IMG/VR virus record: IMGVR_UViG_3300020198_001172
Span: 1 to 23,645 of that record
Reading direction: 5' to 3' (one strand)
Origin: a virus
DNA length: 23,645 nucleotides
The notes under the pieces were generated by a model. That model searched no databases. It was given only the letters and a program-made list of their open reading frames with translations, and was not told the origin of the DNA. A program made the translations under genes and the position numbers. Of this stretch, positions 1-20,559 are shown piece after piece. Each line of letters opens with the position of its first letter. The first letter of the stretch is position 1.

Positions 1-303
<303 letters not shown>

Positions 304-15993: not shown

Positions 15994-16200
15994 ATGACGA
16001 TGCAGCAGGCCGACCCGTCGCGGTTCGTTGTCCGCTTCCCTGACGTAGCCCGGGAGCTGGGCGTTTCGCCGACGACGCTGCGCAAGCTCTGCAAGGAGGA
16101 GAGGGGGCCGCCCCTAATCCGCCTCAGCGAGCGCTGCTTCGGCGTCCGCCGGGGCGAGCTTGATGCTTGGATCGAGACCCGCAAGGTGGGCGGCCCATAG
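15994..16200 (+). CDS. xis: Excisionase-like MerR/AlpA-type HTH protein
   Basis: A 68-residue protein, MTMQQADPSRFVVRFPDVAR..., with a winged-helix pattern: PDVARELGVSPTTLRKLCKE, then the wing GPPLIRLSERCFGVRRGELD and AWIETRK. This is the layout of phage excisionases and AlpA-type regulators that bend DNA at att sites and direct Int toward excision. GAGGGGAGGG precedes the ATG. It sits at the end of the rightward operon, so it would be made after induction, as excision needs. Its last 87 bp overlap the 3' end of the convergent integrase gene, so the mRNAs are mutually antisense there. Confidence 0.78.
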   Translation: MTMQQADPSRFVVRFPDVARELGVSPTTLRKLCKEERGPPLIRLSERCFGVRRGELDAWIETRKVGGP

Positions 16201-17319
16201 GTCCAGGGCCGCCCGCTTCTCCGGATTGTAGAGGGCGTAATTGTAGACGCCCGCCACGCCCGCCTTCGTGCCTGAGATGTGGTTCAGCACGGCCTCGACG
16301 ACGTGCGGCAGTACGCCGAGGTTTCCCATTCCGGTGGCGGCGGTCCTGCGCAGATCGTGAAGCCGCCAGCCGGTGACGCCCGAGGCCCTGTCGAGCGCGG
16401 CCTTCGCCCGGGTGAACCCCTGGAAGCCGCCGACACCGCTTCCGAACACCAGCCCGCGCCCTTCGATCCGAGGCGCGTCGGCCAGGATCGACAGGGCGGC
16501 GTGCGACAGCGGCACGTCGTGCGGCAGTCCGTTCTTCGTCCGCTCGGCCGGCAGGTGCCAGATGCCGGCGGCGAAATCGATCTCAGGCCACGGGATCTCC
16601 GCCACCTCATCGCGCCGCTGCGCCGTCAGCAGCAGCAGCCGGACGATGCGCCCGAAGTCGCCTTCTGGCAGCGCCCGCAGGATGGCCGCGATCTCTTCCG
16701 GCCTCAGCACCCGCTGCCGGGGCTCCTCGCGGATCGGCTTGCGCGTCCCGACGACCGGGTTGGCCTCGGCCGCGCCCTCCGCGATCAGCCACGCATAGAA
16801 GGAGGAGAGGGTGGTGCGCGCTCGGTTCGCGGCGTGCGGGCCCGACCCCTTCGCGATCTCGCCCAGGCGCTCGGCCACCTGCGCTCGCGTCACGCCATCG
16901 ACCGGCGTCCTGTGCAGCGGCGCCCAGGCCTTCTGCATGTAGCGGGTCGACTCGCCGAGCCCCTTCACGCGCACTTGCGACGCCAACGCCTCGAGGTATG
17001 CCGGGATCTTCGAGCCCACGGTGACGGCGGCCCGCTTGCGCTCGGCCTCACGCTCCGCGCTCGGATCGGCGCCGAGGCGCACCCGGGCAAGCCGCTCGGC
17101 CGCCGCACGCCGGGCATCGGTCGCCGACAGCACGCCGACCTTGCCAAGGGTCTCGCGCTTCGTCTGGCCGGCAGCGTTCCGGTACTGGACGACCCACACC
17201 CGCGAGCCACCCGCATTCGCCCGCATCCCGAACCCGGCCAGATCGTCGTCGAAGACGATGACGTAGGCCTTGCCGTCTGGCACCTTCAGGGCCGCCGCGG
17301 ATTGGTTCGTGAGGCGCAT
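16114..17319 (-). CDS. int: P4-type tyrosine site-specific integrase
   Basis: A 401-residue recombinase. The N-terminal arm-binding domain (about 1-95; LKVPDGKAYVIVFDDDLAGF, GMRANAGGSRVWVVQY) is the P4-type fold. A core-binding SAM-like domain spans about 100-185. The catalytic domain has Arg235 (LTAQRRDEV), Lys262 (ERTKNGLP), His321-Arg324 (HDLRRT), His347 (LNHISG) and the probable nucleophile Tyr359 (GVYN). It would recombine attP with a tRNA gene, and a tRNA-Val fragment lies just upstream of its start. No good ribosome site precedes ATG 17319, and three GTAAGC arm-like sites lie 7-34 bp upstream, so Int may repress itself. The 3' end overlaps xis by 87 bp. Confidence 0.93.
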   Translation of the reverse strand: MRLTNQSAAALKVPDGKAYVIVFDDDLAGFGMRANAGGSRVWVVQYRNAAGQTKRETLGKVGVLSATDARRAAAERLARVRLGADPSAEREAERKRAAVTVGSKIPAYLEALASQVRVKGLGESTRYMQKAWAPLHRTPVDGVTRAQVAERLGEIAKGSGPHAANRARTTLSSFYAWLIAEGAAEANPVVGTRKPIREEPRQRVLRPEEIAAILRALPEGDFGRIVRLLLLTAQRRDEVAEIPWPEIDFAAGIWHLPAERTKNGLPHDVPLSHAALSILADAPRIEGRGLVFGSGVGGFQGFTRAKAALDRASGVTGWRLHDLRRTAATGMGNLGVLPHVVEAVLNHISGTKAGVAGVYNYALYNPEKRAALDLWAAHLAGLDPSIKLAPADAEAALAEAD

Positions 17320-17325
17320 CGGCTG

Positions 17326-17592
17326 GTAAGCGTCCGGTAAGCAGATAGTAAGCAGCCGGAGCGCCCGTCACGGTGCATCCTGCGCCTGACGGAGATGGTA
17401 TCAGCGAAAATGCGCACGTTCTCAAGGGATTTGGCGGGCTGGTAAGCGCGAGACTGCCCCCGATAATCTGCGGACATCTGATTTACACGGAGAGGGTCGG
17501 GGGTTCGAGTCCCTCACCGCCCACCATATACTTCAGGCACTTAGCTCACCTGCTGCTTACCGGCCACCCTGATTTGTAAGCACATAGTAAGC
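17326..17592. other. attP: attP region with GTAAGC arm-type repeats on both sides of the core
   Basis: GTAAGC occurs at 17326, 17337 and 17348 (exact 11-bp spacing) and at 17442 on the int side; inverted at 17555; and at 17576 and 17587 (11 bp apart) on the far side. CAGATAGTAAGC (17342-17353) and CACATAGTAAGC (17581-17592) match at 11 of 12 bases across the core. Helical-turn spacing on both sides of a tRNA-derived core is what P and P' integrase arm sites look like. The set is explained by no gene. Confidence 0.8.
17482..17526 (+). other. att core: 3' half of tRNA-Val (UAC anticodon)
   Basis: The bases fold as the 3' half of a tRNA: anticodon loop TTTACAC with TAC at 17484-17486, stem GGAGA, a variable region, T-arm GGGGG/TTCGAGT/CCCTC (17499-17515), acceptor ACCGCCC, discriminator A and CCA (17524-17526). 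No matching GGGCGGT 5' half exists upstream, and the 5' anticodon stem pairs only partly, so this is a fragment and not a gene. Identity with the host tRNA probably begins at the anticodon loop. Confidence 0.85.
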
Positions 17593-18836: not shown

Positions 18837-19577
18837 TCAGCCGCGGCTCATCCGGTCCGCGTCGCGCAGCTCATCCGCGGTCACCGTGCCCGCGCCGATC
18901 TGCACCTGCGCCCGGACGAGCACGTTCTGCTCGCTGGCGTGGTCGTCGAGGTCGAGCTTGCGGAAGATCCGCGCTGCGATGCCGTCGGCGCCGCCGGCCG
19001 CCTTGATGACCGCAGGCGGGGCCGTGTCGATGACGTACTGCGTGCCCTTGGCGATGACCGGGACCGCGACGTTGACCGAGAGCGTCTTGCCCTTGGCCGC
19101 GCCGTTCACGGCGTTCAGGCCGTAGCCGACGGCGGCCTCCAGCATCATCTCGACCCGGCGCTGGCTGAGGAACAGGGCCGCCCACGGGTAGACCTTGCGG
19201 ATGGCCTGGATCGCGTAGCCCGCGATGATCGGGATGAGGATCGTCAGGATCGGCTCGCGCAAGGAAACAGCGAGCGCGACGAGCCAGTCGCCCCAGGGCA
19301 CGATCACGGCCTTATCGCCGACGGTGGCGACCTCGGCGGCGAGCGCACCTGATGCAGTCAGGACCGGCAGACCGACGCTCATGGCGAACAGTGCGGCACC
19401 AGTTGCTCGACCGGTCGGGATCAGCAGGGCGCCGATAGCGATCAGAGTGATTGTTGCCGGCATGAGAAGCGAGAACCCGAACGCGGGGCCGGGCTGCCCC
19501 GGGACTACGCCGAGGGCGATGGCGGGAGACGCGGCACAGGCGAGCGCCAGCGCCGCGAGCGGAAGCATGCGGGTCAT
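18837..19577 (-). CDS. Multi-pass membrane protein, possible holin, 246 aa
   Basis: Four hydrophobic stretches: a signal-like N-terminus (MTRMLPLAALALACAASPAI), about 36-55 (SLLMPATITLIAIGALL), about 60-80 and about 108-125 (EPILTILIPIIAGYAIQAI), followed by a soluble helical C-terminal half (RVEMMLEAAVGYGLNAVNGA to DELRDADRMSRG). The C-terminal half resembles LLH-type phage holin tails, so a holin or related membrane lysis protein is the best reading. No ribosome site precedes ATG 19577; an internal start is possible. It lies downstream of the endolysin in the late operon. Confidence 0.6.
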   Translation of the reverse strand: MTRMLPLAALALACAASPAIALGVVPGQPGPAFGFSLLMPATITLIAIGALLIPTGRATGAALFAMSVGLPVLTASGALAAEVATVGDKAVIVPWGDWLVALAVSLREPILTILIPIIAGYAIQAIRKVYPWAALFLSQRRVEMMLEAAVGYGLNAVNGAAKGKTLSVNVAVPVIAKGTQYVIDTAPPAVIKAAGGADGIAARIFRKLDLDDHASEQNVLVRAQVQIGAGTVTADELRDADRMSRG

Positions 19578-19693
19578 GGTGATGTCTCGATGTCAGGAGG
19601 TGCGCGGCGACCGGCCGGCTCGGGGTGTCTCTCGCGATGCCCCTTCCGTGAGGGACAAGCGCGGTAGGGTTTCACCGGTGAGGGGCTACGGGC

Positions 19694-19840
19694 TCAGCGC
19701 CGGGTGAGGCGGTCGAACAGCCAGCGGCCGAGGCGGGCCCAGGGCGAGGGGTTCGACGGGTAGCGGACCGGCGGCAGAGGCGGCGGGTCGCTCGCGCGGC
19801 GCGGGGCCGGCGGCCAGATGGGGCGCGGATCGTCGCTCAC
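19694..19840 (-). CDS. Small proline-rich protein coupled to the endolysin
   Basis: A GTG start at 19840 overlaps the endolysin stop by 4 bp (GTGA). The 48-residue product, VSDDPRPIWPPAPRRASDPP..., is very Pro/Arg-rich and ends in an amphipathic basic helix (WARLGRWLFDRLTRR). It has no lipobox, so an Rz1-type spanin is not supported. It could bind membrane or peptidoglycan through the basic helix. Two longer frames in the same region are shadows. The coupling makes the gene likely; its role is unknown. Confidence 0.6.
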   Translation of the reverse strand: MSDDPRPIWPPAPRRASDPPPLPPVRYPSNPSPWARLGRWLFDRLTRR

Positions 19841-20559
19841 AGCCGCGCCGCCTGGACGTGCATCCAGTCCATGTTGCTGTTGCGCCCAAGCGAGACCCAT
19901 CCCTCGGCCTCCCACGCCTTCCAGAACTCATCGGCGTCGGGCTGCGCGAGGCGGGCCCTATCGCGGCCCCACTTGAGCTGATTGCGCTCGGGATCGAAGT
20001 CGATCGCGATGCCCCACGAGTGCATCGAGTAGGACGAGCCGCCCCGCATCTTGCGGACGTTCAGCGAGCCGCCGAACAGGTCGAGCCCGAGCTTCTGCCG
20101 GGCCGCCTCGTCGTAGGCGGCTGCGATCCGCGCGAAGGCTCGCGCCGCGCTGTCGTGCACCTTCTCGTGCACGCTGATCCGGCTGACGATGACCTTCTTG
20201 TCCCAGGCCAGCTTCATCGGGAACGGGAGCACGAGCTGCTTCTGATGGAGGCCGACGCCGCCGTAGAAGGTCATGCAGTCGCGCTGGCGCGGCCAGACGG
20301 GTGCGTTGCCGGCGCCGCGAGGTGCATCCTTCGCGGAGGGCGGGAAAGTCGGCAGGCTGTCGGCCCGCACCGGCACCGTCGCCGGAAACAGCGCCGCCTC
20401 GGTCTGCGGCCCATACTGCCCGTCGGGCGTCAGGCCGTTGGCGACCTGAAAGGCCGTCAGCGCCTCGCGCGTCGCCGGACCGCTCTTCCCATCGGCTCCG
20501 CCCTTCCCGAGGTCATACCCGCGCGCGAGGAGAGCGCGCTGGATTTCCAGCGTCGTCAT
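19837..20559 (-). CDS. Endolysin: peptidoglycan-binding domain + M15 (VanY-like) peptidase
   Basis: A 240-residue lysis enzyme. An N-terminal PG_binding_1 repeat spans about 3-57 (LLARGYDLGKGGADGKSGPA, LTAFQVANGLTPDGQYGPQT). After a Pro-rich linker the C-terminal half is an M15 L-alanyl-D-glutamate-type peptidase, with zinc ligands His180 and Asp187 in SYSMHSWGIAIDFD and His234 in MDWMHVQ. It would cut the peptide stems of the wall. No signal peptide is present, so it needs a holin-like partner. GGAGA lies nine bases before the ATG. The domain order (binding then catalytic) is unusual for Gram-negative phage endolysins that lack a binding module, but known. Confidence 0.9.
   Translation of the reverse strand: MTTLEIQRALLARGYDLGKGGADGKSGPATREALTAFQVANGLTPDGQYGPQTEAALFPATVPVRADSLPTFPPSAKDAPRGAGNAPVWPRQRDCMTFYGGVGLHQKQLVLPFPMKLAWDKKVIVSRISVHEKVHDSAARAFARIAAAYDEAARQKLGLDLFGGSLNVRKMRGGSSYSMHSWGIAIDFDPERNQLKWGRDRARLAQPDADEFWKAWEAEGWVSLGRNSNMDWMHVQAARL

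Follow-up and report, generated by a model that had tools for sequence, protein, structure and literature searches.

The attachment sites used by the heterobivalent integrases of lambda, P22 and L5 are among the closest known counterparts of the locus described here. The locus resembles them in the arm sites that flank its core, in an integrase with an N-terminal arm-binding and a catalytic domain, in an IHF-like site between the core and the P' arms and in an HTH excisionase candidate. The locus differs from these systems in its arm-binding domain (PF13356), its arm word and its core, a tRNA anticodon stem-loop. The kind of site is well known, as anticodon-centred insertion into tRNA genes is common; in Islander, 2083 islands have anticodon-centred sites, and tandem arrays number 125 (PMC4383910). 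In KplE1, the integrase promoter overlaps the arm sites and the integrase represses itself (PMC2951348). For the mycobacteriophages of cluster K, it was reported that arm sequences vary between related integrases along with N-terminal residues of Int (PMC3203893).

The window, i.e. the whole stretch of DNA analysed, is a virus record from IMG/VR, 23,645 bases long, which stands among viral records without proof of completeness. Its region 17326-17592 is considered, with a probability of roughly 87% and on the basis of sequence comparison, to be the complete attP of a temperate Methylobacterium phage, the halves of which are found apart at attR and attL of relatives.

Arm words, core and the halves in integrated relatives

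The original prediction proved correct in structure and for the most part in interpretation. As it held, seven GTAAGC words are grouped around a tRNA core, four of them towards int and three on the opposite side, and their coordinates were confirmed. The P-arm words are located at 17326..17331, 17337..17342, 17348..17353 and 17442..17447 (-156, -145, -134 and -40 from the core start; the fourth 94 bp from the third). On the P' arm, the first word (17555..17560, +73) is inverted and lies on the minus strand, unlike the other six words, which are on the plus strand; it is followed by 17576..17581 (+94) and 17587..17592 (+105). From the resulting spacings (11, 11, 94, 113, 21 and 11 bp) it can be seen that the proposed 11-bp steps apply to 17326-17337-17348 and to 17576-17587, but not to the gaps of 94, 113 and 21 bp. 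The conserved part of the word is approximately GTAAGC plus a purine, while the 5 bp between the words vary, and the longer consensus put forward earlier (CAGATAGTAAGC and CACATAGTAAGC) is not conserved.

The core (17482..17526, plus strand, 45 bp) corresponds to tRNA-Val(UAC) from position 32 to CCA. It starts at the anticodon loop TTTACAC (UAC), ends with CCA at 17526 and matched tRNA-Val genes when the region was subjected to BLAST, which bears out the tRNA-Val fragment originally described. A full tRNA is absent from the window, again as predicted, since the tRNA called by ARAGORN at 17432-17526 has no readable anticodon and extends into phage DNA. An intact tRNA-Val(UAC) with the same 3' half had been set as a test, and several genomes of the host family indeed possess intact tRNA-Val genes with identical 45-bp 3' halves.

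Relatives of int with 77-92% identity were detected solely in Methylobacterium genomes and viral contigs; one further, distant match showed 38% identity over 65 residues. In the integrated relatives, the int end (attR) contains three (or two) GTAAGC words, another word 94 bp on, CATCTG[AT] and then the displaced tRNA 3' half. The other end (attL) consists of the complete tRNA-Val(UAC), followed by the inverted word and two direct words. Counted from the first T of TTTACAC, the words at -156/-145/-134/-40 are base-identical to the window at attR of G352, G006 and G001, and the arrangement +73(-)/+94/+105 recurs at attL of G352, G006, G001, G003, G002 and others, the attL positions of G361 being one base off. 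There is some variation in the P arm: G002 and G003 do not possess the outermost P word, the two most diverged relatives, J-076 and WL119, have two P words in the cluster, not three, and P-arm word 4 reads ATAAGC in the most diverged relative. In G352, a 5.7-Mb chromosomal contig, attL and attR are 56.7 kb apart. The 5' flank of the window core (CATCTG[AT]) matches attR only, and its right flank carries P' arms as does attL only. Since the window joins attR and attL halves that the relatives hold apart, it reads as an attP, and as for lambda-type sites the core equals the host target and lysogens harbor recombinant attL/attR (pairs L088/L087 and L056/L057).

The words are short hexamers, and one might ask whether they are chance repeats beside a fortuitous tRNA fragment. 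The window contains two further copies of GTAAGC outside the site, against a chance expectation of 3.6 in total. Moreover, 300 Markov-1 sequences with the composition of the window gave at most three copies per 267-bp stretch, compared to the seven observed, and chance clustering was rejected. As the spacing is also kept in independent genomes, a fortuitous origin is already refuted by conservation and its probability is negligible.

In Methylobacterium sp. J-076, a 13.1-kb element (L176 2501-15634, G002 C101) is bounded by GTAAGC-type attL and attR and carries this int, a family-61 glycosyltransferase, a tail-protein-like gene and a polynucleotide kinase-like gene; it is possibly a shrunken prophage or island. 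On the host side of the G352 attR (right flank, L057/L189), an IHF-like site and inverted GCACCC/GGGTGC words occur, perhaps as the remnant of another tandem element.

Free phage DNA or tandem lysogen

To the left of int, genes for a DNA polymerase III beta-like clamp, RusA, an S24-type repressor and a cytosine methylase are located, while small genes, an endolysin and a tail-spike-like protein follow to the right of the att site. The endolysin (19837..20559, minus strand; PG-binding and M15 peptidase by domain matches) is a late gene on the attL side, and its relatives are frequently located 1-3 kb from the end of a provirus. The left genes are early and the right genes late, in agreement with the earlier statement that int and the late genes are on different sides. 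In G006, early genes that are partly syntenic with the left side of the window reside at the int end. In G008, the attL end has DNA similar to window 18924-19624, including a homologue of the right-side gene 18837-19577, while the Int encoded at the opposite end is 86% identical. Of 12 records that were checked, none contained both the int of the window and a full-length endolysin match, and mosaicism is therefore high. A close relative was not found in annotated phage records, where the matches were cyanophage tRNA-Val genes only, nor were tail-spike relatives found in viral contigs. At window 1-76 there is a run of 76 G, which is probably a two-colour sequencing artefact; the poly-G/poly-P open reading frames there are not real.

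The original prediction had assigned the sequence to a virion or circular form. This assignment is likely to be right; the P and P' halves are joined with no split between them. The proposed check for circularity, on the other hand, revealed neither direct terminal repeats nor self-overlap at the contig ends, and a tandem lysogen would look alike: two prophages with the same arm word, lying in tandem at the same tRNA-Val, would yield an identical junction, so that 17326-17592 would be a chromosomal attR/attL hybrid. That tandem junctions exist at this tRNA is indicated by L082 and L091, in which the end of another integrase is joined to a GTAAGC P' arm. However, both of these GTAAGC tandem junctions combine differing arm words and integrase types, whereas the window shows GTAAGC on either side. 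The early genes on the left and late genes on the right are what a single phage would give, and one relative has window-type right-side DNA at attL and this Int at its other end. A tandem junction is hence unlikely, and the window probably originates from virion, circular, concatemeric or packaged phage DNA. L082, L091 and L090 are tRNA-Val core junctions at which the end or arm region of a different integrase directly adjoins a P' arm of another type, which suggests tandem prophages at a tRNA-Val hotspot; the left flank of L082 matches that of L081.

Strand exchange, integrase and accessory sites

Two T-arm alleles of tRNA-Val occur in the host family, GGCGG-TTCGAGC-CCGTC (C-type) and GGGGG-TTCGAGT-CCCTC (G-type), which are distinguished by the orientation of base pair 51-63 and by a single base in the loop. 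In the window, these variable positions are 17501, 17510 and 17513, and the allele present is the G-type. In three lysogens (G001, G003 and G006), the G-type of the phage is found at attL and the C-type of the host at attR. Therefore, the phage supplied its own T-arm and the exchange took place left of 17501. As phage and host sequences diverge left of 17482, the alleles confine strand exchange to 17482-17500, around the anticodon loop. Judging from the symmetric anticodon stem-loop, the 7-bp overlap is most likely the anticodon loop itself (17482-17488). By its T-arm alleles, the site belongs to the anticodon-loop subclass of tRNA-gene integration, in which crossover takes place in the anticodon region and the element restores the 3' half. 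The phage thereby swaps the T-arm of the host tRNA for its own allele.

The int gene (16114..17319, minus strand) encodes a tyrosine integrase of 401 amino acids. It belongs to the IntSXT/DUF4102 arm-binding integrases (PF13356, 47.3 bits, cut-off 27) and contains the Phage_integrase catalytic domain (PF00589, 48.5 bits, cut-off 27.1), the motifs RR, K, HxxR, H and Y of which are directly visible in the sequence. A small HTH_17/AlpA-like gene (15994..16200, plus strand; Pfam HTH_17 32.0 bits, Phage_AlpA 22.5 bits, each exceeding its cut-off) accompanies int in the relatives examined. By its domain and conserved position, the gene is a putative excisionase gene. The two genes lie tail-to-tail with a 3' overlap of 87 bp (window 16114-16200).

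Five bases after CCA, an IHF-like site begins (CTTCAGGCACTTA, 17531..17543, plus strand) that is weak in the window, agreeing with the consensus at 6/9 positions. A site at the same offset is present in 19 of 23 phage-side flanks, belonging to several integrase types, and matches 9/9 in two relatives. The mean score was 6.7/9 in the 23 phage-side flanks versus 4.6/9 in 36 others, where the position was not fixed; since the phage-side flanks were picked by eye from their arm words, this comparison is indicative. IHF-like sites were also sought on the P side, but their positions were inconsistent. Between the P-arm words, a block (GGAGATGGTATCAGCGAAA, 17391..17409) is conserved in six relatives. 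It overlaps a weak candidate promoter of int on the minus strand (-10 GATACC 17402-17397, 17-bp spacer, -35 TTGAGA 17425-17420), which was recognized by eye and lies under the scan threshold; the scan itself returned neither a sigma-70 promoter nor a terminator near the att site.

From these elements we infer a lambda-style arm-binding (PF13356) tyrosine integrase that, aided by an IHF-like bend site, would insert the phage into tRNA-Val and restore the gene. The N-terminal domain of Int would bind GTAAGC, while its other domains would bind and cut the anticodon stem-loop core. Bending by IHF just right of the core may enable one Int to bridge core and arm. Recombination of attP with tRNA-Val(UAC) would then proceed by exchange in 17482-17500, most probably in the 7-bp anticodon loop, and tRNA-Val would stay functional, as the phage provides the 3' half. 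The HTH gene product may act in excision. Arm words are situated just upstream of the int start codon, and by analogy with KplE1 (PMC2951348) it is likely that Int represses its own gene.

Arm words, integrase lineages and known systems

The relation between arm word and integrase was assessed across 33 related integrases. For their seven arm-word classes, 6 changes suffice on the tree, which is the minimum, with no reversal, while the tRNA targets require 10 changes when traced over the arm-domain tree and 8 over that of the catalytic domain. Within the GTAAGC group, arm domains share 83-98% identity, compared with 33-46% across groups; the remainder of the integrase gives 75-91% and 50-55%. 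Integrases with approximately 50% identity to that of the window, several of them at the same tRNA-Val, have GGGAAGC or GGGGTGC words in a comparable arrangement, their P' words being displaced outward by 9-10 bp. Related PF13356 integrases with the seven arm-word classes (L190-L219, L184-L188) occupy several different tRNA genes, and GTAAGC integrases also target tRNA-Thr-like sites. Repeated words upstream of int were noted for 30 further Methylobacterium integrases, with a spacing of 11 bp in nearly all of them; these words were read from the DNA by eye.

Because the arm word follows the integrase family while the tRNA target switches, GTAAGC is probably recognized by Int. Sites on both sides of the core together with this covariation are consistent with binding by the Int N-terminal domain, and the lineage data are independent supporting evidence for GTAAGC as the arm site. 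The words could instead be operators of another regulator, e.g. Xis or a repressor, that flank the core by chance. They sit immediately upstream of int, a position from which a regulator could act, and direct repeats spaced by one helical turn are also used by RDFs of other phages (PMC7498355). Operators of this kind are nevertheless very improbable: the words stand at fixed distances on both sides of the core, three of them stay with attL, far from int, and they change with the Int lineage, their divergence going with that of the Int N-terminal domain.

We slightly favor the view that the arm words of Methylobacterium phages and islands (GTAAGC, GGGAAGC, GGGGTGC, CGGAAGCC, AGGAAGC, GGTNCTC and CGTAAGC) form a natural series that tracks the PF13356 lineage, with the 11-bp spacing mostly kept (10 bp in one) and freely switching tRNA targets. 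If this is true, the residue-to-word recognition code of the arm domain would be readable by comparison. The related integrases with differing arm words are a natural comparison set for DNA recognition by PF13356. In addition, a base-resolved attP and a candidate integrase/excisionase pair for Methylobacterium are at hand, which could become an integration vector at tRNA-Val(UAC).

On the whole, the attP of the window is a clean, ordinary example of a well-known kind of site. With KplE1 IntS and related tRNA-inserted prophages it has in common that int reads away from att and that arm sites overlap the upstream region of int, whereas the KplE1 arm motif contains TAAA, the target is argW and the RDF is TorI (PMC2951348). 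The IntS attP of ICEMlSym-R7A is likewise alphaproteobacterial, comprises 283 bp with several arm sites and adjoins int, but it belongs to an ICE and not to a phage, its arm consensus is TGKTGGTATC and it has five sites versus the seven of the window (PMC11963761). Cluster K mycobacteriophages also possess 11-bp arm repeats flanking the core; by contrast, they have another host, other target genes and four to six sites (PMC3203893).
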